A DNA stretch of 64,000 nt, from contig ONFO01000002.1 of assembly GCA_900317155.1 (NCBI GenBank), forward strand, positions 62,001-126,000, written 5' to 3'. Each line of letters begins with the position of its first letter. Within the stretch, counting starts at the first letter, position 1. The stretch comes from an uncultured Bacteroidales bacterium (GTDB taxonomy: Bacteria; Bacteroidota; Bacteroidia; Bacteroidales; F082). The notes under the pieces are model-generated. The model was not told the DNA's origin. It was given only the letters and a program-made list of their open reading frames with translations, and made no database searches. Both the position numbers and the translations under genes were made by a program. Below, piece by piece: positions 1,742 through 46,323 of the stretch.

Positions 1742-2002
1742 TGTTAGTTGACAGCTTTATCCAATTGATAATTGGTAGTTGAAAATTGATAATTCAGAGT
1801 TTAGTACAGAACCGGCGATTACTGGAAAAAATAGAAAATAACAAGAATACCGTTAAGAATTGGTTTTGTAAAATATTGAAAATTAATCAGTTGAAAATCT
1901 GTTATATAGAAGAGGCAGTGGTGGGTGTAAAGTTGACAGTTCCAAGGGTGGTAGAATAAGTACAACTCTAACATTTTCACAGAGGCAGGTTTTTGATGTA
2001 AA

Positions 2003-13733: not shown

Positions 13734-14093
13734 TTAGGGGTCCTCTACATCATAATACCCATTTTCATACGCGTCTTTTACAGCCTGAATATACTCTTCA
13801 TCCAACCCTATCGAATCAGCTAAGTCTTCCCATGTAGGATTGAAGTCACTTATTAATTTCTCTTTCCATTCCCTATGCCATTTCTTTAATTGCTTTTCTC
13901 TGTGGATACCGTCAACAAGAAGGTCGTAGACTTCATAATACACCAGTTTCTCTGTATTGTATCGGTCAGAGAAACCTTTGTTGATATGGAGTTTATGTTC
14001 AGCTAACCTCCTTCTGAGGTTTCTGGTCACACCTGTGTATAGGGTGGTATTGTTTTTATTCGTGAGAATGTAGACGATTCCTTGGAGAGGCAT
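13734..14093 (-). CDS. GIY-YIG nuclease domain protein
   Basis: 119 residues, essentially a single GIY-YIG domain of the small UPF0213/UvrC-like type: GIVYILTNKNNTTLYTGVT at 5-23 (the GIY...YTG signature), RRRLAEHK with the catalytic arginine near 28-34, and EKQLKKWHREWKEKLI with the catalytic glutamate near 66-81, ending NPTWEDL. It is standalone with no DNA-recognition domain, so target choice may come from partner DNA such as repeats. The gene is bracketed on both sides by the same palindromic and direct repeats, an arrangement typical of an element that spreads or maintains them. Cellular function is unknown. Confidence 0.85.
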   Translation of the reverse strand: MPLQGIVYILTNKNNTTLYTGVTRNLRRRLAEHKLHINKGFSDRYNTEKLVYYEVYDLLVDGIHREKQLKKWHREWKEKLISDFNPTWEDLADSIGLDEEYIQAVKDAYENGYYDVEDP

Positions 14094-14294: not shown

Positions 14295-15644
14295 TTAAGC
14301 CATGCCATCCCTCATGCTTAGGGCCATCTCCTCCGCCAATGCAACAAACCCATTAGCCGTCATCTCCTTCAAGAAAATCAGCCCATGCGTGGCGCGAATC
14401 AGCGGGTGACTGCTCTCGTAGAAGAAGTTCTTACCAAGGATGAGTTGTATGTCCTTATACTGTTTCACCCAAATACTCTCCGCCAACTCGCTGAAGGGAC
14501 CGTCAAAGTCGGGATTGGGAAACTCAGCCTTTACCTGAGTCAAATAACTGTCTTTAAATGCTTTCTCGAACACGGCGATGGCGTTCAGTGACACAGGCAC
14601 ATAGACGTTGGCTTCAGCCGGATGAAACGTCGACCATACGTTGCGGTAACCAAACACCCTCAGATGGCTAAGGTCGGTCTCCTCACTCCATACCCTGACG
14701 GCCTCAGCGATGCTCTGCATCACCTTGTAATGCGTATTAGGACCTTGGCCTTCCGAGTCGATAGCCACAGTAATGACGGTGGGTTTGATAGTACGGAACT
14801 GGTTGAGGATGGTGTTGATGTCGTTGTCATGAACCGAGCCCTTCGACGAAATCAGAGACCCTTGGTCATACAACCCCAACCTCAGATGATGTATATGGCT
14901 CAGCGAGGTACCACCGTAAGCCCAGACAAGCTCCTCCTCAAACTCACGGATCTCACCTTTGAGTTTCTGTATCTCGGAACTGTTGGGTAAGCCATTTCGA
15001 AGGTTTTCGATTTCGGTTTGGAATCGGGTTTCGATATCGTCAACGCTCTTCAACTGCCACAGTTCCACGGCGTCACGTAGGATACGGTGGCAAAAGCCGC
15101 GTCGCATCTCATCGGGATTTTTACGGGCCACATTGTCGAGATAATGGTGGACGTCTTTCTCCTGCTTGTAACGGTAGCCCTGCTCAAAAAAGTCGGGGTA
15201 TCGCACCATTTGTATGCGACCCTGATGCAGGTAATCCAAAGTGTCTTCCAAGGCTTTTTGGAGGAAAGCATCGGTCACGGAATGGTAGCCCGAAGTCATG
15301 ATGGCAAAGTGCACCTGATTGGAGGGGGACCGTAGTTGCCTATTGATGAAGGGCATGAGGCCCAGCATGATGTCATCATGATGCGGGCCTGTGTGATAGA
15401 TGACCTCGTTTTCAAAGAACCTGGCGCCGCGCCAGAGTTTGCCTTCAACTGCGGCGATGACCTCTTGCACCCTTTCGAGACTGAGGTCAGGGATGCGAGC
15501 ACAACGCGGGTCGTTCTGCAAATCGTCCATCGTCAGCTTATGGGCATAACGGTCGAGGATTTTACATAAACCTAAAATGGCGTGCTCGGTCTTTTCGAAA
15601 GTCCAAGGACCATCGAAAAAGGAAGGGTCGGTTTTGTTAAACAT
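14295..15644 (-). CDS. PIG-L (LmbE)-like deacetylase domain protein
   Basis: 449 residues. The metal-binding motif is YHTGPHHDDIMLG at 83-95, the PIG-L/LmbE motif (usually PHPDDE) with histidine and two aspartates. Later regions HNDINTIL-like and HPAEANVYVPVS fit the same family. It resembles the C-terminal domain that many Bacteroidetes carry fused behind a NagB domain in a long glucosamine-6-phosphate deaminase; here it stands alone, while a separate short NagB is at 36147-36938. It probably deacetylates an N-acetyl sugar or sugar nucleotide. Only 6 bp separate it from the sugar dehydrogenase gene, so they are one operon. The stop codon lies at the edge of a repeat array. Confidence 0.7.
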   Translation of the reverse strand: MFNKTDPSFFDGPWTFEKTEHAILGLCKILDRYAHKLTMDDLQNDPRCARIPDLSLERVQEVIAAVEGKLWRGARFFENEVIYHTGPHHDDIMLGLMPFINRQLRSPSNQVHFAIMTSGYHSVTDAFLQKALEDTLDYLHQGRIQMVRYPDFFEQGYRYKQEKDVHHYLDNVARKNPDEMRRGFCHRILRDAVELWQLKSVDDIETRFQTEIENLRNGLPNSSEIQKLKGEIREFEEELVWAYGGTSLSHIHHLRLGLYDQGSLISSKGSVHDNDINTILNQFRTIKPTVITVAIDSEGQGPNTHYKVMQSIAEAVRVWSEETDLSHLRVFGYRNVWSTFHPAEANVYVPVSLNAIAVFEKAFKDSYLTQVKAEFPNPDFDGPFSELAESIWVKQYKDIQLILGKNFFYESSHPLIRATHGLIFLKEMTANGFVALAEEMALSMRDGMA

Positions 15645-15650
15645 GATTGG

Positions 15651-16928
15651 TTATAATCTTCCGTCAATGATGTCACGAGGCAAAATGCCTTTCACATCAT
15701 AAATGACACCATTGTCCTTCACGAAAGCCTTTATGTCCAAGTCGAGGAACTCCTTATGTGCCACGGCGAGGATGACTGCATCAAACTGGTCTTTCGGGAC
15801 TTCGTTGGTCACCGACACGCCATATTCCTGGAACACATGCTCAGCGTTGGCCCAAGGGTCGTAGACGGTGATGTTGGGCGTGTACTCGCGCAACGTATGG
15901 TAGATGTCGACAATCTTGGTGTTGCGGATGTCGGGGCAGTTCTCCTTGAAAGTGATGCCGAGGATAAGGATTTTGGCGTTCTTCACCAGCACGCCTTTCT
16001 TGTTCATATACTTGATGGTCTGGTTGGCCACGTAAGCGCCCATGCCATCGTTGAGGCGGCGCGAAGCACGCATGATGCGAGGCAGCACGCCATAGACCTG
16101 AGCCTTTTGGATGAGGTAGTATGGGTCAACGCTGATGCAGTGACCGCCCACCAAGCCCGGGCTCAGCTTGATGAAGTTCCACTTCGATGAAGCGGCTTCG
16201 ATGACATCATGTGTGTCGATGCCCATGGCGTTGAAGATCTTGGCCAGCTCGTTCATGAAGGCGATGTTGACATCGCGTTGCGAGTTCTCGATAATCTTGG
16301 AAGCCTCGGCCACCTTGATGCTTGGGGCTTTATGTGTGCCGTTGACGAGGACGCTGTTGTAGATGGCATCCACATAATCGGCAATCTCGGGCGTAGAGCC
16401 AGAGGTCACCTTCTTGATTTTCTCCACCGTGTGCAGCTTGTCGCCGGGATTGATGCGCTCGGGGCTATAGCCGGCATAGAAGTCGACGTTGAACTTCAGT
16501 CCGCTGACGCGTTCCACCACGGGCAGGCACTCTTCCTCGGTGACGCCAGGGTAGACGGTGCTTTCGTAAACCACCACATCGCCCTTGCTGATGACCTTAC
16601 CGACGGTCTCGGAAGCACCCCACAGGGGGCGCAGGTCGGGGCGGTTGTCGGCATCCACCGGGGTGGGCACGGCCACCACATAGAAGTTGCACTTCTTGAT
16701 TTCCTCCAGGTCGGTGGTGCAGCGGAAGCCATGGTTCTTGATGGCATCTTGCAGCAGTTCGTCGCTGACTTCGAGGGTAGCATCATGGCCTGTCATGAGG
16801 GCATCCACACGGCGTTGGTTCATGTCGAAGCCGATGGTCTCGAACTTCGTTGAAAACAGGCGAGCCAGTGGCAGACCCACATAACCCAGGCCTATGACAC
16901 AGATTTTAGTTTGTTGTAAGTCTTTCAT
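15651..16928 (-). CDS. UDP-N-acetylhexosamine 6-dehydrogenase (WbpO/TviB-like)
   Basis: 425 residues from the ATG at 16928 (a TTG two codons earlier is also open). N-terminal NAD motif GLGYVG at 13-18; VAVPTPVD near 86-93; YESTVYPGVTEE; catalytic C264 in LVGGHCISVDPYYL. This motif set marks the WbpO/TviB branch, which oxidises C6 of UDP-GlcNAc or UDP-GalNAc to the uronic acid, rather than the Ugd branch. Its product would be the substrate of the WlbA-like oxidoreductase at 35113-36081. Followed after 6 bp by the PIG-L gene. Confidence 0.85.
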   Translation of the reverse strand: MKDLQQTKICVIGLGYVGLPLARLFSTKFETIGFDMNQRRVDALMTGHDATLEVSDELLQDAIKNHGFRCTTDLEEIKKCNFYVVAVPTPVDADNRPDLRPLWGASETVGKVISKGDVVVYESTVYPGVTEEECLPVVERVSGLKFNVDFYAGYSPERINPGDKLHTVEKIKKVTSGSTPEIADYVDAIYNSVLVNGTHKAPSIKVAEASKIIENSQRDVNIAFMNELAKIFNAMGIDTHDVIEAASSKWNFIKLSPGLVGGHCISVDPYYLIQKAQVYGVLPRIMRASRRLNDGMGAYVANQTIKYMNKKGVLVKNAKILILGITFKENCPDIRNTKIVDIYHTLREYTPNITVYDPWANAEHVFQEYGVSVTNEVPKDQFDAVILAVAHKEFLDLDIKAFVKDNGVIYDVKGILPRDIIDGRL

Positions 16929-16966
16929 TTTCAATATCTGGTTTTAATCATTATTCATTATATACA

Positions 16967-18070
16967 TTATAAAGGTGATCCCTCAAATCTGGTATTCACC
17001 CTATTTTTCACTATCGAAAGTATCTCCTCTGTATACTCACCAAATGCCGGACCGTGCGCCACTTGACTCAGTTCAGCAGCTCGATTCCATTCAATCATGG
17101 CGGGATTTCCATTGGCGTCTACCGACATGTCCCAGCCGATGAGATTGAAATAAGGCATCCGCAACTGCATATCCTTAACGAGATCCAACACTTTGTGAAA
17201 ACAAGGTATCTGATAACCATCCAACACGGTACCGACATCTGTTGTTGGCATAAGCTTCTCCTTGGCATTGCCAAAAGCAACGCCTTTGATTTTTCCTGTT
17301 GCCAAATCGACATCAGCCTTGATGCCACCCGCGGTTTCATTGTCGATAACCTGATTCATTCTACCAATTCGGATAACCGCATACAAAATAACCACTTCGT
17401 TTCCTCTCCTATAGGACATTACTCTTAAGGTGTTAAGCGAAGTAGGATTCAGTTTTGACATGCCCTCATGTTGCTGAAAGCGTTCTTGTATGATGAAACT
17501 GCGTTTGTATTCCTTGAACATATCTTGAATTGAGCAGTTCAATGAAGGGACCATCCCGTTTTCAGTTCTGATAAGTTTCACGCCTTGCCCCCAGGTTCCT
17601 TCAAGTGTAGGCTTGATAATAGCCTCATTGAGGTTGCTGCATCTTTCTATAGCTTCTTCCAAAGTCAAAGCATTATGGTCGTCATAATAATAGCCATTAA
17701 CGTTCTTTATAATGGTTTTCGGCCTATTAATATCAGGGAAAAGCGTGTCATAGAAGCCTTTATCCACGTATGCATGACGGAACTGGAACTTGTTTAGCCT
17801 GTATATGATTTCTGAGTTGTAGATACTTGCAGGAATGTATTTTTCAGAATACACGCCGTTTCTTGAATACAGATACTGATGCCAATAGGTAGGCACTTCC
17901 CTTCCGAAATGCTTCTTGAAATAAGCCTTAATGTCAGCTTCCTGGCCTTTCGAAAGCGGTTTCATCGGGCATAGTTGCATAGAATGCAGTATGGTCTTTT
18001 CGTAATTGCTTTCGATTTGCTTGATTTCTCTTTCGTTAAGTAAGCTTTTGATTTTTTCTTTTGCACTCAT
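16967..18070 (-). CDS. ATP-grasp protein, sugar-transfer associated (1)
   Basis: 367 residues of the ATPgrasp_ST type. The nucleotide-binding strands are IIKPTLEGTWGQGVKLI near 150-166 and SFIIQERFQQH near 189-199; NTLRVMSYRR and the C-terminal metal site LIGWDMSVDANGNPAMIEWN near 310-329 follow. The usual EGN is EWN here. ATP-grasp enzymes join a carboxylate to an amine or thiol using ATP; this subfamily is found in surface polysaccharide loci and its acceptors are unknown. It is the most divergent of four paralogues in the locus, with 38 bp to the dehydrogenase gene and 67 bp from the next ATP-grasp gene. Confidence 0.75.
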   Translation of the reverse strand: MSAKEKIKSLLNEREIKQIESNYEKTILHSMQLCPMKPLSKGQEADIKAYFKKHFGREVPTYWHQYLYSRNGVYSEKYIPASIYNSEIIYRLNKFQFRHAYVDKGFYDTLFPDINRPKTIIKNVNGYYYDDHNALTLEEAIERCSNLNEAIIKPTLEGTWGQGVKLIRTENGMVPSLNCSIQDMFKEYKRSFIIQERFQQHEGMSKLNPTSLNTLRVMSYRRGNEVVILYAVIRIGRMNQVIDNETAGGIKADVDLATGKIKGVAFGNAKEKLMPTTDVGTVLDGYQIPCFHKVLDLVKDMQLRMPYFNLIGWDMSVDANGNPAMIEWNRAAELSQVAHGPAFGEYTEEILSIVKNRVNTRFEGSPL

Positions 18071-18137
18071 ATCAATACTATTTCAATATTATGTTAAGTT
18101 CCCCCCAAACAGCGTCTTTCAACAGGTTATTGTATGT

Positions 18138-19256
18138 TCACGACACAAAATACTTTTCGATTTGTTTTTTTAATCCCCCATGAACGGCCTGTAAAAGAGA
18201 AATCTCCCACAAACCATTCCCTTCAATAAACATAGGTCCTTCTTCTGTTATGGCTATGTCCCATCCAATGGAATGGCAACGATAAAGACGTTTATGTAAC
18301 TCGACGGCTTGTTTTTCTGCTTCTTTATAATAGGGAATTTCAAAATCCTTAAACACAACACGTGTATCTGGATGTTCCTTTACAGAGGTTCCATACTGGG
18401 GTTTCAAGAAACCTGTTTCCATCAATTTCCCTTTTTCCATATCAATTCCAACAAAAACACCGCCTTTGGCCCAGTTGTCAACAGAACTACCTTGTCTACC
18501 CATCCTTAAACCGGCTCCAAAAGGAACAACCTCCCCGTCTTTTGTCATGACCGTTTGCATACGGATTGAATTGATTGTAGAATCACACAATGTGTTCATT
18601 TTTGGGTGTTGATAAATCCTTTTTTGCACCAAATAATTGGCAGACAACAAAACATTTATCAACTTATCAATACTAGACGGTTTCCCATCAACATACACCT
18701 TTGAATCTTGTATTTTCAAAGCAAAAATACCATTGCCTAATTGACCGCTTGAGGGCTTGCAAAACGCATCCATATCACGAGAAAACAATTGCTTCAATTG
18801 TTGGATTGCATCTTGTTGTGTGTCTATCTCAAACTGAGCATCGACATATAACACCTTCTTGTCCTTAATAAAACAATACACGGGGGGGGTAGGAATACCG
18901 AACTTCTCCAAAAACACATTAAAATAAAACTTGTCGGCTGTAATTACCCGACTGGTATACATAAAATTCGGGTTGTGATTGTTTAAATAGTTTATTTTGG
19001 CTTGAAAACTATCGTATGGAATCAAGTATTCACTTGTCATACGTTCCCTTGTCATTTCAGACCTATCGAATCCGTATGTGAAATAAAAAGGCTCGTAATC
19101 TCCAAATTTTCGAATAAAAAACAATTGATCCTTCAGAATTTGTTTTCTTGACTTGTGATTACAATCTGGGTAATAGGTTACGCCATCAACAATTGATGAT
19201 TTATTTTTGAAAAGTGAATAAATTCTGCGGCACTTTTTTACAAATTGAAATTTCAT
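18138..19256 (-). CDS. ATP-grasp protein, sugar-transfer associated (2)
   Basis: 372 residues, ATPgrasp_ST type. Key segments: DAFCKPSSGQLGNGIFALKI near 176-195 (lysine plus glycine-rich loop), YLVQKRIYQHP, NSIRMQTVMTKDGEVVPFGA, and SIGWDIAITEEGPMFIEGN near 329-347 for metal binding. It is closely similar to the neighbour at 19325-20452 (shared IQDSKVYV, KGG(V/I)FVGIDM, GWDIAIT), so they are tandem duplicates. Proposed role: ATP-dependent ligation of an amino acid or similar group to a sugar. That role is inferred from fold and context only. Confidence 0.75.
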   Translation of the reverse strand: MKFQFVKKCRRIYSLFKNKSSIVDGVTYYPDCNHKSRKQILKDQLFFIRKFGDYEPFYFTYGFDRSEMTRERMTSEYLIPYDSFQAKINYLNNHNPNFMYTSRVITADKFYFNVFLEKFGIPTPPVYCFIKDKKVLYVDAQFEIDTQQDAIQQLKQLFSRDMDAFCKPSSGQLGNGIFALKIQDSKVYVDGKPSSIDKLINVLLSANYLVQKRIYQHPKMNTLCDSTINSIRMQTVMTKDGEVVPFGAGLRMGRQGSSVDNWAKGGVFVGIDMEKGKLMETGFLKPQYGTSVKEHPDTRVVFKDFEIPYYKEAEKQAVELHKRLYRCHSIGWDIAITEEGPMFIEGNGLWEISLLQAVHGGLKKQIEKYFVS

Positions 19257-19324
19257 ATTTATATGATGTTTTATTTATAAGAGAATTATGTGGATTTGAT
19301 ATTTCTAATTCTATTGATAGTCAA

Positions 19325-20452
19325 TTAATTAAATGGGCTATCATTAATCCTGCCAAGTTCAGGGAAATACTTTTCAACATGCTTTAATCCTCCCACGGCT
19401 GCCTGAGTTCCAGACACTTCCCATAAGCTGTTGCCTTCAATGAATATTGGTCCGTCTAGTGTTATTGCTATATCCCAACCAACAGAATGAATCCTATAAA
19501 GCTTTGAATGCAATTCTTTTGCCATCTCAACTGCTTCCTTGAAAAAAGGTATTTCAAATCCTTCAAAAACAACACCATTGTCTGGCTGCTGATAAACCAG
19601 TTTTCCATGAGGCGGCTTGATGATACCCTTTTTCATCAATTTTCCCGTATTCATATCTATGCCGACAAATATACCACCTTTTGCACAGTTATCAACACGG
19701 CTTCCCTCTCTTCCGATACGCAGTCCTGCTCTAACGGCGATGATTTCCTCGTTTGGAGTAATCAAGGTTACCAATCGTATAGTGTTTACCGCTGTCGAAC
19801 ACAACCTGTTCAATTCAGGATGCTGTACGATTCTATCTTGGATGATATAATTTGATTTCGCAAATGTCTTTAACAAATCGTCTTTTGAAGAAACCAATTC
19901 GTTGTTGACATAAACCTTAGAGTCTTGTATCTTAAGAGCAAAAGCCCCATCTCCCAGTTGCCCGTCAAATTCTTTTGCAAAAGCATCCATATCATGATTG
20001 AGAATCGTTGAAATCTCATCACCATGATGATATTCATCATAAAACAATTTCCCATTTCGAGTATAATAGAGAATTTTTGGTGTTGGGATATTCAAACTTT
20101 TAAGAAAAAGGTAAAAATAGAACTTGTCTGAAACTATACAATTGGCAGAGCATATCCTTTTTTTACGATCAAAATAATTATTGTTTTTGAACATCTTGTT
20201 TAAAAACGTATGTTCATAAACAATATATTCATCACAAATTTTCTTACGATCCATACTCTTTCTATCAAACCCGTACACAAAATAATACTTTTCCCTCCCC
20301 CCAAATTTCCAAATAAAGTATAATTGATCGCAGAAAATCTGCCATGTTGACTTATGGGGTTCATCTGGATAATAAGATTCCTGGCAACAAATTGATTTTG
20401 CCCTACGGATTAATACTTTCGTTGCTTTAGCTTTTTTTGTGAAGCTTCCCAT
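19325..20452 (-). CDS. ATP-grasp protein, sugar-transfer associated (3)
   Basis: 375 residues, paralogue of the protein at 18138-19256. Segments: DAFAKEFDGQLGDGAFALKI near 165-184, YIIQDRIVQHP, NTIRLVTLITPNEEIIAVRA, RIGREGSRVDNCAKGGIFVG, and SVGWDIAITLDGPIFIEGN near 323-341. All expected ATP and metal residues are present. The N-terminal 130 residues, with YYFVYGFDRKSMDRK, are conserved in the neighbour too and may bind the sugar or lipid acceptor. The 59-bp gap to capA and the same strand indicate co-transcription. Confidence 0.75.
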   Translation of the reverse strand: MGSFTKKAKATKVLIRRAKSICCQESYYPDEPHKSTWQIFCDQLYFIWKFGGREKYYFVYGFDRKSMDRKKICDEYIVYEHTFLNKMFKNNNYFDRKKRICSANCIVSDKFYFYLFLKSLNIPTPKILYYTRNGKLFYDEYHHGDEISTILNHDMDAFAKEFDGQLGDGAFALKIQDSKVYVNNELVSSKDDLLKTFAKSNYIIQDRIVQHPELNRLCSTAVNTIRLVTLITPNEEIIAVRAGLRIGREGSRVDNCAKGGIFVGIDMNTGKLMKKGIIKPPHGKLVYQQPDNGVVFEGFEIPFFKEAVEMAKELHSKLYRIHSVGWDIAITLDGPIFIEGNSLWEVSGTQAAVGGLKHVEKYFPELGRINDSPFN

Positions 20453-20511
20453 AATACTATGTTTTTAAACCAATTACTCAAACAAACACATTTTAATCAA
20501 AGTGATTGACT

Positions 20512-21597
20512 TTATTTTTTTCTTATTCCGACTTTGCGCAAAAAGACCTTACTATAATTTTCCATCTTAACCATAATAGGATAAGGGCAATACCTAAGCA
20601 ATAGCGTTCTATGACTCAAAACAGAATCTATCTTCTTATCATTATAAAATGAAATGGTTCCATCTTCACTTTCTCTCGTTAGTCTATTAGAAGAGCTAGG
20701 GCTTTTGCCACCTAATTCCGATATGACAACCAAACCCACTCTTCCCAAAGGTTTCCATTTTTTATATGTCACACAGTCCACATACGGGTATCCATCAGTA
20801 ACAGGTAAGGAAGAAAAGTCAATAGGATCTTTGGGATAATACGTTGATCGAGGCTTTGTTAATAACCTGTCAGGGAACAAAAAATTACCCATACTATAGG
20901 CAACAGAAGCATCCTTATAATTTACCACTGGTTGAACACGATGAGGGTGGCTACCAAGGATTAAATCCGAACCGGCCTTCATCATTTTCTTTGCTTTCTT
21001 ATATACACGTGGAGTCGTAACCCAAGTATGTTCCTTTCCCCAATGACACAAAACAACTACATAGTTGCATTGTTGTTTATACTTTTTGATTTCTGATACC
21101 ACATAGTCATCATACATTGGATTGATTCCAGGCTCCGTTTCCGTTGCCCATGGACACCAACCTATGTTTTCATTATCACAAAAAGCCAAAAACGCCACTT
21201 TTTTATCATGAATCACTTTAACCACGGGGGCACTAGCTTCTTGAATATTGTTACCAGCCCCTATATGTTGAATGCCTAATTCATCAAGTATTTGTATGGT
21301 ATGTTTTGCTCCGTTCAAACCTAAATCAAAAAAATGATTATTGGCCAAACTTACAATGTTAATGTCCAGTTGCTTTAACTTTATTAAATCTTCATCTTTG
21401 GCATAAATTACATCTCCCTTGCGTTTCATTTTTTCCTCATTGAAGTTTGGCTCATTTCCAATTGCGGTCTCCAAAGTGCCCACTCTGATGTCAGCACTTC
21501 GTAAAACCTCCAGAACTTCTTGGGAAATATAACCATCATTTACGCCTGCAAGAATGCCACCAGGCATAATATCACCAACAGCAGCTATTTTAATCAT
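20512..21597 (-). CDS. CapA-like (PgsA-type) metallophosphatase-fold protein
   Basis: 361 residues. CapA family motifs are all present: AAVGDIMPGG at the start, VGTLETAIGN, LANNHFFDLGLNG, CHWGKEHTWV and ILGSHPHRVQPV with the metal-binding histidines, then YSMGNFLF. No signal peptide is visible, so it is probably cytoplasmic or loosely bound. CapA/PgsA proteins are needed for poly-gamma-glutamate capsule synthesis or transport, though their exact reaction is unclear. Next to several ATP-grasp ligases it suggests amino-acid-containing surface material. A truncated second copy lies just upstream. Confidence 0.8.
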   Translation of the reverse strand: MIKIAAVGDIMPGGILAGVNDGYISQEVLEVLRSADIRVGTLETAIGNEPNFNEEKMKRKGDVIYAKDEDLIKLKQLDINIVSLANNHFFDLGLNGAKHTIQILDELGIQHIGAGNNIQEASAPVVKVIHDKKVAFLAFCDNENIGWCPWATETEPGINPMYDDYVVSEIKKYKQQCNYVVVLCHWGKEHTWVTTPRVYKKAKKMMKAGSDLILGSHPHRVQPVVNYKDASVAYSMGNFLFPDRLLTKPRSTYYPKDPIDFSSLPVTDGYPYVDCVTYKKWKPLGRVGLVVISELGGKSPSSSNRLTRESEDGTISFYNDKKIDSVLSHRTLLLRYCPYPIMVKMENYSKVFLRKVGIRKK

Positions 21598-21649
21598 TAT
21601 TTTTTACTTAATTTTTATCCCAAAATTTAAGTTTCCACAGGAATGATTG

Positions 21650-21785
21650 TTAAAAAACAGTTATATACTTCTTATTTTTAAAAATCAATGACCAACCCAT
21701 ATAGATCAACACATATACGGCAAATTTGACAATTCCGTCAGGATACATCGACAAATTCAACAAACGCCCCAAAATAAGATTTATT
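21650..21785 (-). pseudogene. Relic of a flippase 3' end
   Basis: On the minus strand this reads RLLNLSMYPDGIVKFAVYVL then IYMGWSLIFKNKKYITVF and stop. It matches the tail of the flippase at 23763-25247 (HLLHLSMYPDGLVKAGVYAV, IYLGWSFIFK). Nothing of the preceding 430 residues is left. It lies directly downstream of the capA relic, so both look like pieces of an older gene pair cut down by recombination. Confidence 0.65.
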
Positions 21786-21788
21786 TGC

Positions 21789-22157
21789 TCATTCCAACCC
21801 TATGCAAAAGTGATCTACTATATTTTTTAAAAAAATCACAAAAGGATATAAATAAGATTTAAACAATTGCTTTCTTTGACTCAAAATAGAATCTAATTTT
21901 TTATCGTTATAAAATGAAATGATTCCATCTTCATTTTCTCTTGTTAGTTTATAAGTGGAGCGAGGGTTTTTACCATCTAATTCTGACAATACTATCATTC
22001 CCACTCTTCCTAAAGGTTTCCACTTTTTATATGTCACACACTCTACATAGGGGTATCCATCAGTATTCGGTAATGAATAGAGGTCGATAGGCTCTTCAGG
22101 ATAATAAGTCGAACGAGGCTTCACTAACAATCTATCAGGAAACATAAAATCACCCAG
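21789..22157 (-). pseudogene. Truncated second capA (C-terminal third)
   Basis: Open from an ATG at 22145, 118 residues, about three quarters identical by eye to the last 120 residues of the intact CapA at 20512-21597 (FPDRLL, KPRSTYYP, TDGYPYV, CVTYKKWKPLGRVG). Homology extends four codons before the ATG and ends at a TAA (about 22158-22160). The metal-binding N-terminal two thirds are missing, so it cannot have CapA activity. It is a remnant of a duplicated or replaced capA. Confidence 0.8.
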
Positions 22158-22171
22158 TTAAGCATTCATTC

Positions 22172-22756
22172 TTAAATATTATAACGGGGTATGTTTATAA
22201 ATGTATAACGCCCATCTTTTTTTCTTCTTATGTGGAACAATATTACCCTATGGGATTTTTTAAACCCAATGAGTTCATGCAACTTTATGGATTTGGTATT
22301 AGATGGCTTGATGCATGTACCCAACCTTTTATTCTTTACATCATCATATTTTAAGTTTTTAACCGTGTGATATAAAAGGTGAAGTGCAATTCCCTTTCTT
22401 TGATACCTTTTATCTACCTCGAGTGAAACATGTTCGAAATCACAATTCTTCACATTATTGAAAATGGAACGATTACCTCGATAGGTGCCATAATGAAAGG
22501 CGACAATAATGTTGTCATCATCAACAACAACCCACAATTCCCCATTGACCGAGCACTGCAACAATTTATCCATATCACCAATTCTACACTTATAAAGATG
22601 CTTGTTTTCGTATGTCAATTTCACCATTCTCAATCCTTCAGGCAAAGGACGTAATTTTTCTTGTGCTTTTTCCAACAAATCCGTTGAATCAGCATAAAAC
22701 ACATAATAATTATGTATTGAATGCCTTAATTTATTTAGAACGCTAGCTATTTTCAT
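22172..22756 (-). CDS. GNAT-family N-acetyltransferase
   Basis: 194 residues. Acetyl-CoA binding motif A is HVSLEVDKRYQRKGIALHLL near 109-128, with the R-x-x-G-x-A pyrophosphate loop; motif B is NTKSIKLHELIGFKK near 153-167. The N-terminal half contains no second domain. It probably acylates the amino group of a sugar or amino acid used in the polymer. The start overlaps the end of the ATP-grasp gene at 22753-23742 by 4 bp, so the two act from one transcript and perhaps in one pathway. The downstream side abuts the capA relic. Confidence 0.75.
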   Translation of the reverse strand: MKIASVLNKLRHSIHNYYVFYADSTDLLEKAQEKLRPLPEGLRMVKLTYENKHLYKCRIGDMDKLLQCSVNGELWVVVDDDNIIVAFHYGTYRGNRSIFNNVKNCDFEHVSLEVDKRYQRKGIALHLLYHTVKNLKYDDVKNKRLGTCIKPSNTKSIKLHELIGFKKSHRVILFHIRRKKDGRYTFINIPRYNI

Positions 22757-23742
22757 ATTAATGCCTTTATTTTAGGCCACCATAATCTTTCAATTCCCAT
22801 TATTTCGAATGTACCGGTCCATGGGGCATTATTACCTTCTATGATTTCGACACCGTCATTAGTAATAGCTAAATCCCAACCGATATATCTTACTTGGGGT
22901 ATTTTTTTTGCAGCTTCAGTAACAACTTCCAATACACGGTCCCACATTGGAATCTTCATTCCAACCACCAACTTATCAGAACCCGGATGATAAAAATAGT
23001 TCTTACTATTCAACACCTCATTAATTCCTGGTCCTTCAATAACACCATGCTCAATTGAAATAGGATAAGCGATACATCCATCGGCTGTGTCTGTTATAGC
23101 ATCACCAGTACCCGCACGATACTTGGCTTTCAAAACATGAACATCACCTTTTCCATCAATCATCGTGTATATCCTGAATGTGTTGAGAGATTTTGTTCCA
23201 AGATAGATATCATCATGTGCTTTCAAACATTCTTCCAATAACATATCGTCTGACACAAAATGATTATAAAGTGTTTTCAACTCCTCTTCAGAAACACCGC
23301 TCGTGGAATGTTTCTCAATTCCACGACCTTCATGCCCCTGCAATGGCTTTGCTATAAACACCGGCGTCTTGTTCACAAAATCCATAAATTCGCTAAATGA
23401 AGATTTCGGAGCATAAAGCCATCTTCTTGAGACAAAATCACTAAAATACTTCAATGCGTTTACTTTATTTTTCAATAAATGAACGTATTTTGGATCATTC
23501 ACATTATTCCATAACCAACAGCCTCTTGTCCTTGTAAAAAATCTTTTTTTCTCATATCTCGACAATGTATACCCATTACCGATTACAAAGTAGTCATTCA
23601 CTGTGAACTTATAGCATATCTTACTTATTATAAAATCAATAAGCACTTTTACCCATTCGCCTTTTCCAAGACCGATATCTTGGGCATAGCGTTTGCTTTT
23701 TCTCACTACTAATATACTGTTATTAATAATACGTCTAATCAT
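22753..23742 (-). CDS. ATP-grasp protein, sugar-transfer associated (4)
   Basis: 329 residues. It has PVFIAKPLQGHEGRGIEKHS near 131-150 (lysine and glycine-rich loop), MLLEECLKAHDDIY, NTFRIYTMIDGKGDVHVLKA, and YIGWDLAITNDGVEIIEGN near 286-304. It belongs to the same ATPgrasp_ST family as 18138 and 19325 but is clearly divergent, which suggests a different acceptor or amino acid. Translationally coupled (4-bp overlap) with the GNAT gene downstream and 20 bp from the flippase gene upstream. The product is probably cytoplasmic or membrane-associated. Confidence 0.75.
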   Translation of the reverse strand: MIRRIINNSILVVRKSKRYAQDIGLGKGEWVKVLIDFIISKICYKFTVNDYFVIGNGYTLSRYEKKRFFTRTRGCWLWNNVNDPKYVHLLKNKVNALKYFSDFVSRRWLYAPKSSFSEFMDFVNKTPVFIAKPLQGHEGRGIEKHSTSGVSEEELKTLYNHFVSDDMLLEECLKAHDDIYLGTKSLNTFRIYTMIDGKGDVHVLKAKYRAGTGDAITDTADGCIAYPISIEHGVIEGPGINEVLNSKNYFYHPGSDKLVVGMKIPMWDRVLEVVTEAAKKIPQVRYIGWDLAITNDGVEIIEGNNAPWTGTFEIMGIERLWWPKIKALI

Positions 23743-23762: not shown

Positions 23763-25247
23763 TTAATTATCTTGTTTTTTATTTTTCTTCAATTTCTTGA
23801 ACAATTTAAATCTATCTGGAATAATGGTCAAAAAGTAAGTATATGCTTCTGGTTTGAAAATGAAAGACCACCCCAAATATATAACAGCATACACACCTGC
23901 TTTTACCAATCCGTCTGGATACATGCTCAGATGAAGCAAATGTCCAACTCCAAAACTGACCGCTGCCGCTATCAATGCAACAATACCCACAGGAAGCAAA
24001 TCAAGAATCTGCCTCCAAAACTTATAACCCACATGCTTGGAAACCAAACCAATATTCACAAAATAGGAAAACCAAGCATTGAGAACCATACCCCCCAATA
24101 ACCCCTTCATTCCAAAAAACACCATTCCCAACACGATCGCGCCAATGCCCACTCCTCGCTTTAGTAAAGTCCAAACAAACATAGTTTTACTTTTGCCTAT
24201 GGCAGCTATTGCTTGGAGGTTTGCCGATTGCAAACACCCAGCCAAACCAGCAAAACAAAGTACTTGAAAGTAAGGGATACTTTGTAACCAACGGTCGGAA
24301 TACAATAAAACAAATAATGGCTTTGCGCATAGCAACAATATAAACATCATAGGAAAAGTGATGTAAGACAAAGTCATGGACAACCTTTTAATCATATTCG
24401 ACAAAACAACCTTATCATCTTGAACCTCAGCAAAAAGAGGATACGTAACTTGTGTCATAATGCTAGAAATACTATGGGAAGCTAAACTTTCCGTTCCACT
24501 TGCTTTTGAATAATACCCCATAGTAGATGGATTATACTTCTTTCCAATTAACAATCCCTGTATTTGACCACTGAAGCTATTGATCAGATGCGTCAAGAAC
24601 ATATAGAATCCGAAATCGAACAACTCTTTAAAAGACTTCCAAGAAAAAATCCAAGAAGGCCGCCATTTCACATAGAACCAAAATACCAAAGAATATAAAG
24701 CAGAACCTATCAGATTTTGTGCCACCAGTGCCCATACCCCAAATCCTTTGTATGCCAAAATAATAGTAATCACCAAATTAATTACTGTAATAACAATCGA
24801 AACAATAGATAATAATTTGAAATTTAGTTTCTTTTTTAGTTTATTTTGTTGGATAAGATTTAATGCATGCGTAAAAAGGACTATCCCCTGCACCCGTAAC
24901 ACTACGCAAAGGATTGGCGTGTTATAAAAACGGGCAATAACCGGCGCACTAATGAAAAGTATAGCATACATTAGTGCAGCCATACCCAAATTCCACCAAA
25001 ATATGGTACTATAGTCTTCTTGTGTAGGTCGTTTTTTTTGTATCAACGCAGAGCCAAAACCGCCATCAATGAAAGTATCCGCTAACACCATGAAAATGGA
25101 TAGCATACCGATGCAGCCATAATCATATGGTGTAAGCAGACGCGCCAAAATAATACCCGAGAAGAATCTAATGAACATCGTAGAATACTTCTGCAAGGCC
25201 GTCCACACCATACCGGAGGCGGCCTTTTGTTTTAAGCTTTCCGCCAT
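23763..25247 (-). CDS. Polysaccharide flippase, Wzx/WzxC-like (MOP superfamily)
   Basis: 494 residues with about 12-14 hydrophobic helices. The opening is diagnostic: KAASGMVWTALQKYSTMFIR, then GIILARLLTPYDYGCIGM and FIDGGFGSALIQKK, as in polysaccharide export proteins of the WzxC/Polysacc_synt_3 type. It flips lipid-linked repeat units across the inner membrane. It ends in a lysine-rich tail. Only 1 bp separates it from the oxidoreductase gene upstream. A relic of another flippase tail is at 21650-21785. Confidence 0.9.
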   Translation of the reverse strand: MAESLKQKAASGMVWTALQKYSTMFIRFFSGIILARLLTPYDYGCIGMLSIFMVLADTFIDGGFGSALIQKKRPTQEDYSTIFWWNLGMAALMYAILFISAPVIARFYNTPILCVVLRVQGIVLFTHALNLIQQNKLKKKLNFKLLSIVSIVITVINLVITIILAYKGFGVWALVAQNLIGSALYSLVFWFYVKWRPSWIFSWKSFKELFDFGFYMFLTHLINSFSGQIQGLLIGKKYNPSTMGYYSKASGTESLASHSISSIMTQVTYPLFAEVQDDKVVLSNMIKRLSMTLSYITFPMMFILLLCAKPLFVLLYSDRWLQSIPYFQVLCFAGLAGCLQSANLQAIAAIGKSKTMFVWTLLKRGVGIGAIVLGMVFFGMKGLLGGMVLNAWFSYFVNIGLVSKHVGYKFWRQILDLLPVGIVALIAAAVSFGVGHLLHLSMYPDGLVKAGVYAVIYLGWSFIFKPEAYTYFLTIIPDRFKLFKKLKKNKKQDN

Positions 25248-25248
25248 A

Positions 25249-26457
25249 TTATTTACCTTCCGCGAAGTCTTTCAAATACGCAAACCTTGGAGTCAACTGG
25301 CCTTCTTTCAAAATCATGGAACGGTCAATCACATCGGAATGCTCTCCATTCAGCAAAGGCTCAAACACGTGCTTCATCAACATGGTACCGAAATACTCGC
25401 TGGTATCTATGGCCAAGGCATTCGGACAGGTGTCAACAGCCATCACTGAAATATTATGGTCAGACGAAAATGCCGGTTCATCTTTCTCAGTCATGGGATT
25501 GTAATCGAAATAAGGATCATCATGAGTGGAAGAGCGTACAGTTGATTTTATGCTTCCCTTAATATCGCATGTCACGTCACCAATCATGCGGATGCGCATA
25601 TCTTTGTTGCGCAAATCCTCCTCGCTCAAATAGACAGGAGCCTCTGGTCCCCAAAAATGAGCGCAAATCAGCATATCGGTTTTCTTCGCCCACTTCATAA
25701 AGTCACTTTCATAATCCTTGGGATTGTGTGTGAAATCACTCCATGAGAAAGTAGCTCCATCCTTGCGCTTTACCAAACGGTCGGCATCAACTACACAATA
25801 AGACAAAGTGTCGATGCTTGCATCAGAAAGATACGCTTCTTCGCTCATTCTATGAGCACCGATGCTTTCCAACACATGCTGTGCACCATGTGACACTCGA
25901 CCAGCGCCCGTGACCAACAATTTCACCTTGGGCAATTCTATGTTTTTCAACGAGTCCAATAAACGATTAAGGGTAAACTGCCTATCCGGCTTAGGCAATT
26001 CGAACAATTTATGTTTCAAACCATAACCCCGCAAGGTATAGTACACACCAACTACACCGGCCCACCAACCAAATGCACATACACGAATATTGTTGTCATC
26101 CACAAGATATTCGTAATCGCAGAAAGTGATACGCTTCTGTATAAAAGCCTGCAACAAAGGACGGTTATATTCCTGCATCTTGGCGATATGACCAAAGAAA
26201 AAATAGTGCTTATTTGGAATAAGACTCTCAATTTTGGCTTCTTTAATTCCGAACAAGATGTCACAGTCCTTTACGTCTTGAACAACCTCGACACCTTCTT
26301 CCCGATACTGCTCATCAGAAAAAGCACGAATGTCACTTGTTTGTACCACAATTTGATGCTGGGGATATAATTTGTTTAACTCTGCCACCTGTTTGGGTGC
26401 AAGAGCCACACGATTGTCTACTGGATTTTTAGTTTCCTTTATTAAAGCAATTTTCAT
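25249..26457 (-). CDS. Alanine dehydrogenase / saccharopine-type NAD(P) oxidoreductase
   Basis: 402 residues. The N-terminus KIALIKETKNPVDNRVALAP is the AlaDH/PNT N-terminal signature, followed by a FFGHIAKMQ segment resembling the pyruvate/lysine site and a nucleotide motif VTGAGRVSHGAQ near 181-192. C-terminal: ICAHFWGPEAPVYL, DVTCDIKGSIKST and ISVMAVDTCPNALAIDTS. The family includes alanine dehydrogenase, saccharopine-forming lysine 2-oxoglutarate reductase and N5-(carboxyethyl)ornithine synthase; the sequence alone does not decide. Its position inside the polysaccharide operon, 1 bp from the flippase, suggests it makes an unusual amino acid for the polymer. Confidence 0.7.
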   Translation of the reverse strand: MKIALIKETKNPVDNRVALAPKQVAELNKLYPQHQIVVQTSDIRAFSDEQYREEGVEVVQDVKDCDILFGIKEAKIESLIPNKHYFFFGHIAKMQEYNRPLLQAFIQKRITFCDYEYLVDDNNIRVCAFGWWAGVVGVYYTLRGYGLKHKLFELPKPDRQFTLNRLLDSLKNIELPKVKLLVTGAGRVSHGAQHVLESIGAHRMSEEAYLSDASIDTLSYCVVDADRLVKRKDGATFSWSDFTHNPKDYESDFMKWAKKTDMLICAHFWGPEAPVYLSEEDLRNKDMRIRMIGDVTCDIKGSIKSTVRSSTHDDPYFDYNPMTEKDEPAFSSDHNISVMAVDTCPNALAIDTSEYFGTMLMKHVFEPLLNGEHSDVIDRSMILKEGQLTPRFAYLKDFAEGK

Positions 26458-26489: not shown

Positions 26490-27647
26490 TTAATTCTTCT
26501 TCAATTTCTTTCGTTCCTCATCCGTCAAGGCTTCGTATTCATCCATACTGATGCCATACATATCTTTCACCTTTTGGGCAATACGTTTACGACGACCTAA
26601 CATCCAATATAAGCCATAACATACACCTATACTAGCCACAATGACACCATAAAGCTGCCATTGCTCCGAGAAATGCGACTTATAGAACACCCACCAAACC
26701 CCAATGATCATCATGTTGAGTATAATCTCCATCAAGGAGGTCTCCAAATGATGGAAACCATAGTCGATGAAAGCATGGTGAAGATGGGTCTTGTCGGGAT
26801 AGAAAGGCGACTCGCCGCGACTGATACGGCCAAACATCACTCGAACCGTATCGAAAACGGGAATGGCCAACACCGCCAAGGCATAAGCAATCAAGCAAAA
26901 GTTGGTTGGATCCGTTTGTTGGCCGCAAAGCGAGTCTTTGGTCAGCATGGCCATCACCATATCACATAAAGCGATGCCCAGCATCATGGTGCCTGCATCG
27001 CCAATAAACATCTTCGATCGGTTGCCAAACACATTCATGATGAAAAACGGAATAAGTCCACCTATGATGGAGGCAGCCAAGGCCGCCCGGACAAAGTCGT
27101 GGGAATAGAAAAACAGTATGCCATAAAAACCGAATGCCATGATGCAAATGCCAGAAGAAAGTCCGTCGATGCCGTCAATCATATTGATGGCATTGATGAT
27201 GCCTATACAACCGAAAACAGTCAAAGGCCAGGCAATCAATGGTGAAATTTCATGCACGCCCCAAAGACCATGAAGATCGTTGACCGGATAATTGTTTCCA
27301 ACAGCTAAAGCGATCACGATGAGGATTTCGAAAACAAATCTCAAAAGTGGAGAAAGTTTCTTTATATCGTCCCAAGCCCCAATAATGAGCATCAGAAGCA
27401 TGGCAATCTGTACAGGGACAATGGAATGGCAATCATGTTTGAACCAATAACACAAGGAGCCTGCCATAGCACCCATGAACACCACAAACCCACCCATTAC
27501 GGGAATAGGCACGCGTTGAAGTTTTCTTTCTTCAGGATTGTCATAAAAATGTTTCTTTTTCGCAAAAGTCAGTACTGGCTGGTGCACCAATGCCGCAACT
27601 AACAGCGAAATGGAAAAAACCAAAATAATAAAATAAACGTCAGGCAT
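26490..27647 (-). CDS. Undecaprenyl-phosphate sugar-1-phosphate transferase (WecA-like)
   Basis: 385 residues from the ATG at 27647 (a TTG at 27668 is also open). About 10-11 membrane helices. MraY/WecA family motifs: GAWDDIKKLSPL near 90-101 (two aspartates), NAINMIDGIDGLSSGI near 152-167, FIGDAGTMMLG near 216-226, and the cytoplasmic HLHHAF loop near 283-288. Transfers GlcNAc-1-phosphate or a related sugar-1-phosphate to undecaprenyl phosphate, the first step of the repeat unit. It lies 21 bp after wecG. Confidence 0.9.
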   Translation of the reverse strand: MPDVYFIILVFSISLLVAALVHQPVLTFAKKKHFYDNPEERKLQRVPIPVMGGFVVFMGAMAGSLCYWFKHDCHSIVPVQIAMLLMLIIGAWDDIKKLSPLLRFVFEILIVIALAVGNNYPVNDLHGLWGVHEISPLIAWPLTVFGCIGIINAINMIDGIDGLSSGICIMAFGFYGILFFYSHDFVRAALAASIIGGLIPFFIMNVFGNRSKMFIGDAGTMMLGIALCDMVMAMLTKDSLCGQQTDPTNFCLIAYALAVLAIPVFDTVRVMFGRISRGESPFYPDKTHLHHAFIDYGFHHLETSLMEIILNMMIIGVWWVFYKSHFSEQWQLYGVIVASIGVCYGLYWMLGRRKRIAQKVKDMYGISMDEYEALTDEERKKLKKN

Positions 27648-27668
27648 ATTGAGAAAAATAAAATACAA

Positions 27669-28409
27669 CTAATATGATTTCTTCCTTTTTTCTTCCCGAT
27701 AAATCTTGGGAAGGGTAGCAACAATTTGATGACAGCGTTGCAACTGTTTCTTGGGCTCGGAAAACACCCTATACACAAACTCCATATGGTGGTCAACCAT
27801 CCATTTTGGGGCACGTTTCGGTGCATTTTCAAGTCCGCAATAGAAATTGAAAACAGCGCCCACGCCAATCATAACGCCTCGTTGCAAAAAGGGTTGAAGT
27901 CGAAACATGAAGTTCTCTTGTTTGGGAGCACCCAAGGCCACCCAAACAATGTCAGGGTTGTCCTCATTAATCATTTTGGCAATAGCTGGATAATCAAAAT
28001 CCTCAACCTTGCAAAACGGAGGGGCAAAAAACGTCATATTACTGACTGAAGGGTCTGTTTTTGACAATTCATTTCTCAAACCATCAAGTATCTGTTGTGA
28101 AGTACCAATAAAGAACTGCCTATAATGCTTTCTATCCGTCAAGTCCTCAAAAATCTGGCTGCCACAATATTGCTGATATTCGACACCATAAAGTCGTTTC
28201 AAAAACACGGGCACCCAACTGCTGTCGCAGATGGAAAAAAGGCTCTCATTCACAATCCTACGATACTCCAGGTCTTTATGCACCATCTGAAGGATATTGC
28301 CATCGGCAACACAGATGTATCGGGCACCTTCTTTTTGAAGTTGCTCGTCTATTTGGTTCCAGATGGTCTGCCTGTCGAACTCGTAGTTAATGTTAAAATA
28401 GGTGTTCAT
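27669..28409 (-). CDS. WecG/TagA/CpsF family glycosyltransferase
   Basis: 246 residues. Family markers are CVADGNILQMVHKD near 33-46, the DSSWVPVFLKRLYG segment, and the signature DIVWVALGAPKQENFM near 152-167, then GVGAVFNFYCG and RAPKW. These GT26 enzymes add the second sugar, typically ManNAc or ManNAcA, onto the lipid-linked first sugar, matching the WecA-like gene just downstream and the UDP-ManNAcA genes wecC-wecB elsewhere in the window. Located with no gap after the beta-helix gene. Confidence 0.9.
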   Translation of the reverse strand: MNTYFNINYEFDRQTIWNQIDEQLQKEGARYICVADGNILQMVHKDLEYRRIVNESLFSICDSSWVPVFLKRLYGVEYQQYCGSQIFEDLTDRKHYRQFFIGTSQQILDGLRNELSKTDPSVSNMTFFAPPFCKVEDFDYPAIAKMINEDNPDIVWVALGAPKQENFMFRLQPFLQRGVMIGVGAVFNFYCGLENAPKRAPKWMVDHHMEFVYRVFSEPKKQLQRCHQIVATLPKIYREEKRKKSY

Positions 28410-32762: not shown

Positions 32763-32790
32763 AATAGAGAGTTTGTGGATAGAACCAAAA

Positions 32791-35087: not shown

Positions 35088-35112
35088 AACGGTGTATTTG
35101 GTTGATGCAAAC

Positions 35113-36084
<972 letters not shown>

Positions 36085-40516: not shown

Positions 40517-40529
40517 CTAAGAATTAGCT

Positions 40530-42550: not shown

Positions 42551-42561
42551 GGTTTTTGTTT

Positions 42562-46233: not shown

Positions 46234-46323
46234 ACAGCTTCGCCTCCTAAGTCCCATTAAAAAACTCTTAACGAACTCTTTTTCAACACCATACAAAACC
46301 GCATAATACGGTATTTAAAACTT

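Follow-up and report, generated by a model that had tools for sequence, protein, structure and literature searches.

A capsule-like gene cluster in a 64,000-nucleotide stretch of contig ONFO01000002.1 from an uncultured Bacteroidales bacterium (the whole stretch is called the window) contains four ATP-grasp ligases of the ATPgrasp_ST family, ST1 to ST4, beside a CapA-family protein, and we found that CapA genes repeatedly lie adjacent to amide ligases of different families. The cluster points to a polymer bearing unusual amino acids, some perhaps of the D form. The reading that we favor, and to which we give an even chance of being right, is that the locus would make a Wzx/Wzy-type surface polysaccharide whose uronic acids are amidated with amino acids by ligase-plus-epimerase modules, some residues being of the D form or opine-like. 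A preliminary description of this DNA had proposed uronic acids carrying amino acids or short peptides; the putative role of CapA, a lysine-ketoglutarate-reductase-like (LKR) gene and the recurring CapA-ligase modules are stronger clues than those it had drawn on. The genes on which the argument turns are the following (G and L numbers below are our handles for genomes and loci):

16967-18070, minus strand: ATPgrasp_ST ligase ST1, with an EWN metal motif (PF14397, 137 bits)
18138-19256, minus strand: ATPgrasp_ST ligase ST2 (PF14397, 177 bits)
19325-20452, minus strand: ATPgrasp_ST ligase ST3, immediately downstream of capA (PF14397, 170 bits)
20512-21597, minus strand: CapA-family protein, proposed aminoacyl/peptidyl epimerase (PF09587, 187 bits; nearest solved structure, MslH)
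21660-22172, minus strand: relics, the 3' end of a second capA and then the 3' end of a second wzx (the former by nucleotide and amino acid identity to capA, the latter by eye)
22172-22756, minus strand: GNAT N-acetyltransferase (PF00583, 29.6 bits; cut-off 20.7)
22753-23742, minus strand: ATPgrasp_ST ligase ST4, overlapping the GNAT gene by 4 nucleotides (PF14397, 137 bits)
23763-25247, minus strand: Wzx-type flippase (PF13440 Polysacc_synt_3, 312 bits)
25249-26457, minus strand: LKR-like oxidoreductase that would supply an opine-type amino acid (AASS is the best solved relative, 7.5e-33)
32791-33693, minus strand: TupA-like ATP-grasp, proposed ligase for the C6 amide of glucuronic acid (GlcA) (PF14305, 116 bits; cut-off 25)

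The recurrence of CapA beside ligases was analyzed in 99 genomes of the genus, with matches accepted at E 1e-8 or better. This gave 99 ATPgrasp_ST matches in 38 genomes and 81 CapA matches in 55, and both were present in 28. For 25 of the 81 CapA, in 16 genomes, an ATPgrasp_ST gene was found within 1.5 kb, on the same strand in 25/25 cases, and uniform placement would give 0.25; when the 32 CapA lying within 20 kb of such a ligase were shifted at random by up to 20 kb, 5.2 adjacent cases were expected (standard deviation 2.0; maximum 13 in 5000 rounds). One locus can interleave up to three CapA and four ligases, as seen in the layouts ST-CapA-ST-CapA-ST (L044), CapA-ST-CapA-ST-ST-YdjC-CapA-ST (L048) and CapA-GNAT-ST-CapA-ST-ST-CapA-ST (L055). 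An adjacency test was also carried out on 20 CapA-centered loci from 19 genomes, chosen among 33 matches; its profiles were built from these same loci, and only genes of at least 150 amino acids on the CapA strand were counted. An immediate ATP-grasp neighbor of any kind was present for 22 of 31 CapA, compared with 9.4 expected (standard deviation 2.3; maximum 17 in 2000 label shuffles), a count that includes AG400, a family defined after it had been noticed near CapA. ATPgrasp_ST alone adjoined 13 of the 31, a value reached in 1 of 2000 shuffles, and the values for TupA alone (3/31; 282 of 2000 shuffles) and GNAT alone (4/31; 210 of 2000) were not significant, although GNAT-family genes recur in the vicinity of CapA and the ligases. 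AG400 itself is an ATP-grasp-like family of about 400 amino acids, often adjoining CapA, with several members weak in Pfam; it was seen in L051, L055-L059, L065, L068, L072, L079, L084 and L009, and its profile matched that of ATPgrasp_ST with a probability of 94%.

At the class level, CapA matches at E 1e-40 were obtained in 82 of 395 genomes, and 20 loci were fetched. A Pfam scan of ten direct CapA neighbors in five of them detected a RimK-type ATP-grasp above the cut-off in L150 and L154, and below it in L161. The fourth locus scanned (L151, G540) has CapA adjoining a 631-amino-acid asparagine-synthase-like protein, another amide-forming enzyme type, and a 631-amino-acid protein also adjoins CapA in L152 (G601). 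The repeated adjacency to different ligase families fits an epimerase acting on a ligase-attached residue. In an evenly drawn order-level sample of 119 genomes, at least 90% complete and with the above-cut-off rows taken by eye, there were 65 CapA above the cut-off, and ATPgrasp_ST above its cut-off was found in 16 genomes, that of the window included; the two families shared a contig only in the window's genome (G000) and in G237, where they lie 49 kb apart. Among plasmid records (PLSDB), 84 had a CapA match and 16 an ATPgrasp_ST match. In the two of the former that were inspected, both from Bacteroides finegoldii, the neighbors of CapA are folD in one and genes for glycan use and transport in the other; in the three of the latter that were inspected, no CapA is listed beside the ligase, in gene tables that are incomplete. 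Among the matches listed from the open-licence literature searched, none dealt with CapA-ligase modules in capsule loci.

Next, the CapA protein was compared with enzymes of known structure. It exceeds the PF09587 cut-off (187 bits versus 27), and a profile built from 37 of the 40 CapA genes in the fetched loci matched MslH (8gq9) in the PDB at E 4.5e-32, the next other protein being at 4e-4. In agreement, the top four matches of a fold search with a low-confidence CapA model were all MslH (E 4e-13 to 9e-13; next, 1.8e-7). The structure models were weak, as they came from alignments of 3 and 7 sequences and had a mean predicted local distance difference test score (pLDDT) of 51.9 and 61.4. MslH is a metal-dependent peptide epimerase with two His/Asp dyads; it binds the terminal carboxylate of its substrate near Ca(II), and the substrate residue carries a free alpha-carboxylate, according to the excerpts of the MslH study that also assign the roles of its residues (PMC10406935). 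The MslH sites Glu44, Asn87, His88, His259, His295 and Asp11 are identical in all 37 CapA and Asp91 in 35/37, so that both catalytic dyads (His88/Asp91 and His295/Asp11) are kept, as H88, H219 and D9 in 37/37 CapA and D91 in 35/37; the equivalence of D9 and Asp11 comes from spacing only, as the CapA-MslH alignments begin after that residue. For PgsA, the related protein of Bacillus subtilis poly-glutamate synthesis, the D/L ratio of the polymer is reported as 75/25 with pgsA and 5/95 without it, for which the authors suggest an interaction with racemase or a conformational effect, in the excerpts of PMC6029982; epimerization of in-chain L-Glu by PgsA is credited to Ogasawara 2019, as cited in excerpts of PMC7168211. 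We propose that the CapA of the window may act as an epimerase on the ligase-attached residue.

The ligases were then inspected. A Pfam scan, the check that the preliminary description had itself named, placed all four far above the curated ATPgrasp_ST cut-off (137, 177, 170 and 137 bits versus 31.4), with the CapA-like protein beside them. The near-tandem duplicates it had seen are the middle pair, ST2 and ST3, which are diverged paralogues sharing 50% identity; likewise, the coupling of a ligase to a GNAT gene was found as the ST4 overlap, and the TupA-like gene sits where it had been placed, 9.0 kb upstream of the ATPgrasp_ST genes. ST1 is 70% identical to a ligase of a genome of the same genus (G129), and ST3 is 83% identical to a G129 ligase that lies downstream of a CapA 80% identical to that of the window. 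An alignment of 58 of the 76 ATPgrasp_ST genes in the fetched loci (the window plus 30 loci) showed K109, K167 and D333 in 58/58 members, E345 in 57 and N347 in 56, the last two being kept in all four window ligases. The middle residue of the E-x-N metal motif varies freely in this alignment (G in 16, W in 11, others in the remainder), so the EWN of ST1, which had been singled out, is present as described and is ordinary variation; a special metal site in ST1 was ruled out. The profile of these 58 sequences matched ATP-grasp ligases in the PDB, none of them close (best E 1.9e-5; 47 matches to E 1), led by RimK-type glutamate ligases, tubulin polyglutamylases, cyanophycin synthase and D-Ala-D-Ala ligase. 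By their family, ST1 to ST4 would be carboxylate-amine ligases and may form amides on a sugar; their number need not match that of the amino acids attached. The genome of the window contains 13 ATPgrasp_ST matches, 12 of them above the cut-off, which is more than expected by chance given that only 16 of the 119 order-level genomes have any. A second polysaccharide-type locus in it (L009-L011; G000:C24, 213-247 kb) has five above the cut-off, accompanied by LicD, a TupA-like gene and a GNAT-like gene that scores below its Pfam cut-off, and no CapA was found there.

The LKR-like protein shares three homologous alignment stretches with the lysine-ketoglutarate reductase portion of AASS, has an AlaDh_PNT_N domain (PF05222, 78 bits), and retains Lys83 and His90, which we take to be the catalytic Lys/His of saccharopine dehydrogenase (LKR/LYS1), in at least 29 of 30 aligned copies. 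Ten of the 99 genus genomes contain the gene, nine of them with an ATPgrasp_ST match within 8 kb; in the tenth (G069), the contig stops 258 bases past the match. The two genes also co-occur by genome, as ATPgrasp_ST was present in 9/10 genomes with the LKR-like gene versus 29/89 without it (Fisher p 7e-4). In another family (G280, L106), an LKR-like gene comes directly after three ATPgrasp_ST genes, one of them cut by the contig start, and in G390 (L105) it comes ahead of wzx, near a TupA-like gene, and no ATPgrasp_ST gene lies within 20 kb. A homologue was detected in 141 of 247 genomes of the order sample; besides the G280 and G390 copies, at 66% identity, full-length copies elsewhere in the order were at most 46% identical among the matches listed, with one 71-residue piece at 50%, and three such distant loci that were fetched (L110-L112) gave no match to the ligase or CapA profiles. 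A capsule-dedicated, opine-forming enzyme is thus a plausible role for this gene. We know of no polysaccharide with a saccharopine-type amino acid; an amide of Nepsilon-(1-carboxyethyl)-L-lysine is described from a Providencia O-antigen in excerpts of the review PMC10609480.

Under the reading that we favor, the cytoplasmic ATP-grasp ligases (ST1 to ST4 and the TupA-like protein) would use ATP to activate a carboxylate as an acyl phosphate and then link it with an amine. In the first such reaction, the C6 carboxylate of the sugar would be joined to the amine of an amino acid, and later ones may extend a short peptide. CapA, working in the manner of MslH or PgsA, would epimerize the newly added residue at C-alpha, leaving some residues D, and the free alpha-carboxylate of that residue would be its metal anchor. 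The LKR-like enzyme would reductively join a 2-oxo acid with lysine or a comparable amine, giving a saccharopine- or carboxyethyl-lysine-like amino acid, and the GNAT protein would cap a free amine. We infer this chemistry, its substrates (the acceptor and the amino acids) and the order of steps from the recurrence and arrangement of the genes, their family assignments, and the key residues and nearest structures described here. A tentative and somewhat unlikely extension takes the CapA-ligase modules of Bacteroidales surface polysaccharide loci, in up to about three repeats, as an assembly line in which each would add and epimerize one residue of a mixed L/D peptide on the uronic acid, with the saccharopine-type amino acid supplied by the LKR-like enzyme.

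The locus occupies the minus strand of the window between about 44.5 and 11.4 kb, in a genome of 3.8 Mb, and 24 of its 30 neighboring gene pairs are separated by less than 70 nucleotides or overlap. It runs from genes of the dTDP-3-amino-sugar type, GFO/IDH, wzy-like, TupA-like ATP-grasp, glycosyltransferase, WecG-type and WecA-like genes to the LKR-like gene, wzx, the four ligases with GNAT and CapA, and genes for a TviB-type dehydrogenase, a PIG-L-like protein, PnuC and a UDP-glucose dehydrogenase. The members not given above are these:

11405-12703, minus strand: UDP-glucose 6-dehydrogenase-like, putative UDP-GlcA supply (NCBIfam PRK15057, 538 bits, below the cut-off of 757; TIGR03026 above cut-off)
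14295-15644, minus strand: PIG-L/LmbE-like protein, possible de-N-acetylase (C-terminal part of PRK02122, 1.6e-21, below cut-off; Pfam PIG-L below cut-off)
15651-16934, minus strand: TviB-type UDP-GlcNAc 6-dehydrogenase-like, putative UDP-GlcNAcA supply (NCBIfam PRK15182, 1.4e-159, 531 bits; cut-off 592)
26490-27668, minus strand: WecA-like undecaprenyl-phosphate GlcNAc-1-phosphate transferase (TIGR02380, 4.7e-45, below cut-off)
27669-28409, minus strand: WecG/TagA-type glycosyltransferase (PF03808, 121 bits)
31890-32840, minus strand: GT2 glycosyltransferase, overlapping the TupA-like gene (PF00535)
33720-35126, minus strand: Wzy_C polymerase/ligase-like protein (PF04932)
39407-43479, minus strand: genes for a putative dTDP-3-amino-3,6-dideoxyhexose (DegT, FdtA-type, RmlB-like, RmlA-like; Pfam matches)

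One protein of the last group has a tandem pair of FdtA-type stretches (40530-41411, minus strand). A GIY-YIG nuclease-domain gene (13734-14093, minus strand) lies between PnuC and the PIG-L-like gene, and a type II DNA methyltransferase-like gene of the Eco57I/TaqI type (44515-46296, minus strand) stands right at the upstream edge of the locus. Near the left end of the window are apparent anti-phage defense genes (305-3779, minus strand) with a bSEFIR match (PADLOC E 7e-96), beside which an adjoining pair matches AriB (5.5e-12) and AriA (3e-24).

Three differing dehydrogenases that form UDP-uronic acids had been described for the window. Three nucleotide-sugar dehydrogenases are indeed present, and their best equivalog models differ (PRK15057, PRK15182 and PRK11064), each score being below the model cut-off. 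The third (53477-54700; best model, the UDP-ManNAc dehydrogenase PRK11064), however, is probably not part of the cluster, and was set aside as a member: it lies on the opposite strand, some 30 kb away from the ligases, adjoins wecB, and is separated from the cluster by a Glu/Gln-tRNA-synthetase gene. The TupA-like gene overlaps the GT2 gene by 50 nucleotides. Amide formation on the C6 of GlcA has been demonstrated for Cj1438C, the TupA-like C-terminal ATP-grasp domain of Cj1438, in excerpts of PMC11800379, and uronic acid amidation is our best guess for the TupA-like protein by analogy. Its extension to the ATPgrasp_ST ligases is weak, because a profile comparison with hhalign does not join the two families closely (probability 6%). 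The proposal that the uronic acids carry amino acids is thus partly supported: it keeps the placement of the ligases beside uronic acid genes in a polysaccharide locus, the Cj1438C precedent, and the amino acid amides of uronic acids that excerpts of the review PMC10609480 describe for many bacterial polysaccharides, but membership of the ATPgrasp_ST family alone does not prove a polysaccharide role, because three copies in the genome adjoin mutS or tyrS/glyA-type genes.

Several observations weigh against our reading. Those three copies, out of 13 matches, lie outside the polysaccharide loci seen (L012 10733-12986; L013 9532-10806), two next to mutS and one next to genes of the tyrS and glyA types, in the vicinity of lptD. 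A PDB search with a single ATPgrasp_ST protein gave no match, and the accession PF14397 was not mentioned in the open-licence literature searched. In the genus, 56 of the 81 CapA had no ATPgrasp_ST within 1.5 kb and 67 of the 99 ATPgrasp_ST matches had no CapA that close; none of the 20 class-level CapA loci had ATPgrasp_ST or AG400 by profile, and one had a TupA-like gene (L153). The divergence of CapA was correlated with that of the directly downstream ligase (18 pairs, r 0.60, 0/5000 permutations) and not with that of the upstream ligase (10 pairs, r -0.15), but the correlation was gone after CapA more than 50% identical were removed (7 pairs, r -0.24); specific co-evolution was therefore ruled out, and the data show only recent inheritance as a module. 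As for the enzyme itself, the metal ligand His261 of MslH is Gly in 37/37 CapA, the other three ligands (Glu44, Asn87 and His259) being kept, and the score against the MslH equivalog NF038314 was 47.6 bits, below the cut-off of 700. Because of the Gly, CapA is not classed as MslH; it may still work in the manner of MslH. Nearly all of the 20 class-level CapA, which come from other families, share the MslH-like residues too, so these fit an epimerase without proving one; as such residues are general in CapA, they were dropped as proof. In addition, hydropathy predicts no membrane segment in the CapA of the window, whereas PgsA is placed at the outer cell surface in excerpts of PMC6029982. Lastly, the amino-sugar genes of the locus offer a second possible acceptor.

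This last point leads to a different reading, unlikely in our estimate, in which the ligases would join the carboxylate of an amino acid to the amine of an amino sugar (e.g., dTDP-Fuc3N or dTDP-Qui3N from the genes at 39407-43479), the GNAT protein would acetylate a free amino group, and CapA would be a bystander or act elsewhere. The cluster does contain amino-sugar genes, the GNAT gene overlaps ST4 and GNAT genes recur near ligases, and excerpts of PMC10609480 describe amino sugars that carry N-linked amino acids. However, besides the window, FdtA-type genes were found by profile in 1 of 40 loci of other genomes (L062), and CapA-ligase modules recur without them. An N-aminoacyl linkage also leaves no free alpha-carboxylate, which the MslH substrate has; uronic amides are preferred over N-aminoacyl sugars for the CapA modules because ligation to the uronic acid leaves that group free, as MslH-type chemistry requires.

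It is quite unlikely, we think, that CapA is instead a metallophosphatase that would dephosphorylate a ligase-attached amino-alcohol phosphate, as with the serinol-type amides of the Campylobacter jejuni capsule. The pathway to that amide includes a phosphatase step, and ethanolamine is an alternative amine in it. The source excerpts give serinol as the amine and describe the HS:2 capsule as having a GlcA amide formed by a TupA-like ATP-grasp, and CapA has a calcineurin-like fold, with phosphatases and nucleotidases among its weaker fold matches. MslH is far closer to CapA than any phosphatase is, though, and at least 32 of the 37 CapA have Cys, Met, Phe or Leu two positions after D9, where classical DxH motifs have His; moreover, a phosphatase would account for neither the LKR-like gene nor the repetition of CapA. 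Very unlikely is a separate amino acid polymer or peptide, of the poly-glutamate or teichuronopeptide style, built by these enzymes in place of a uronic acid decoration: the CapA/PgsA family is tied to an acidic peptide polymer and TupA is linked to teichuronopeptide, but the locus has glycosyltransferases together with wzx-, wzy- and wecA-like genes, and PgsB and PgsC did not turn up in the Pfam scans of the window genes, in which no aimed search for them was made.

The ligase block has a mosaic composition. Its G+C content is 36.4%, compared with 44.2% in the window as a whole and 50.4% at 11.4-16.9 kb. Between the GNAT gene and capA lie a capA relic (about 21789-22172), with 79% nucleotide identity to capA over 300 nucleotides and 65% amino acid identity, and a wzx relic (about 21660-21780), recognized by eye as the 3' end of another wzx copy; the relic frames are read as they stand. 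Together they look like the scar of a recombination that placed ST4 and the GNAT gene between wzx and capA. We nevertheless give little credence to a partly decayed, horizontally acquired mosaic with some non-functional ligases, which the low G+C content and the relics would fit, as the four ligases, capA, GNAT and LKR-like genes are all open frames and the catalytic residues are retained in the ligases and CapA.

Surface polysaccharides help shape the encounters of bacteria with phages and hosts. If the CapA proteins of such loci are epimerases acting after ATP-grasp ligases, this large and vaguely annotated family would gain a testable role beyond poly-glutamate, ATPgrasp_ST would gain a partner of known chemistry, and D- or opine-type amino acids in polysaccharides would become predictable from sequence. 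If the assembly line holds as well, module shuffling by recombination would create diversity of capsule antigens.

Among known systems, MslH and PgsA resemble the CapA of the window in that MslH is its nearest solved structure by sequence and fold and both His/Asp dyads and three of the four metal ligands are kept; they differ in the change of the His261 ligand to Gly, the lack of a predicted membrane segment, and the partner, an ATP-grasp ligase in the window versus PgsB/PgsC for PgsA and a ribosomally synthesized and post-translationally modified peptide (RiPP) system for MslH. The Cj1438C system likewise combines a TupA-like ATP-grasp with a GT2 in a polysaccharide locus, fused in Cj1438 and as overlapping genes in the window, which adds the ATPgrasp_ST ligases and CapA. 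CA_C2189 of Clostridium acetobutylicum is an ATP-grasp amino acyl ligase in a polysaccharide-type gene neighborhood, as in the window, but with one ligase and no CapA among the rows listed, as excerpts of PMC4000134 describe it. The LKR-like gene is homologous to saccharopine dehydrogenase and the LKR domain of AASS but sits in capsule-type cassettes. Finally, the O-antigens and capsules of Proteus, Providencia and other bacteria include uronic acids amidated by L- or D-amino acids, Nepsilon-(1-carboxyethyl)-L-lysine among them; excerpts of the review that describes them (PMC10609480) do not mention a CapA-family epimerase or an LKR-like gene beside ligases. Those polysaccharides are known by structure, whereas the system of the window is known from its enzymes alone.

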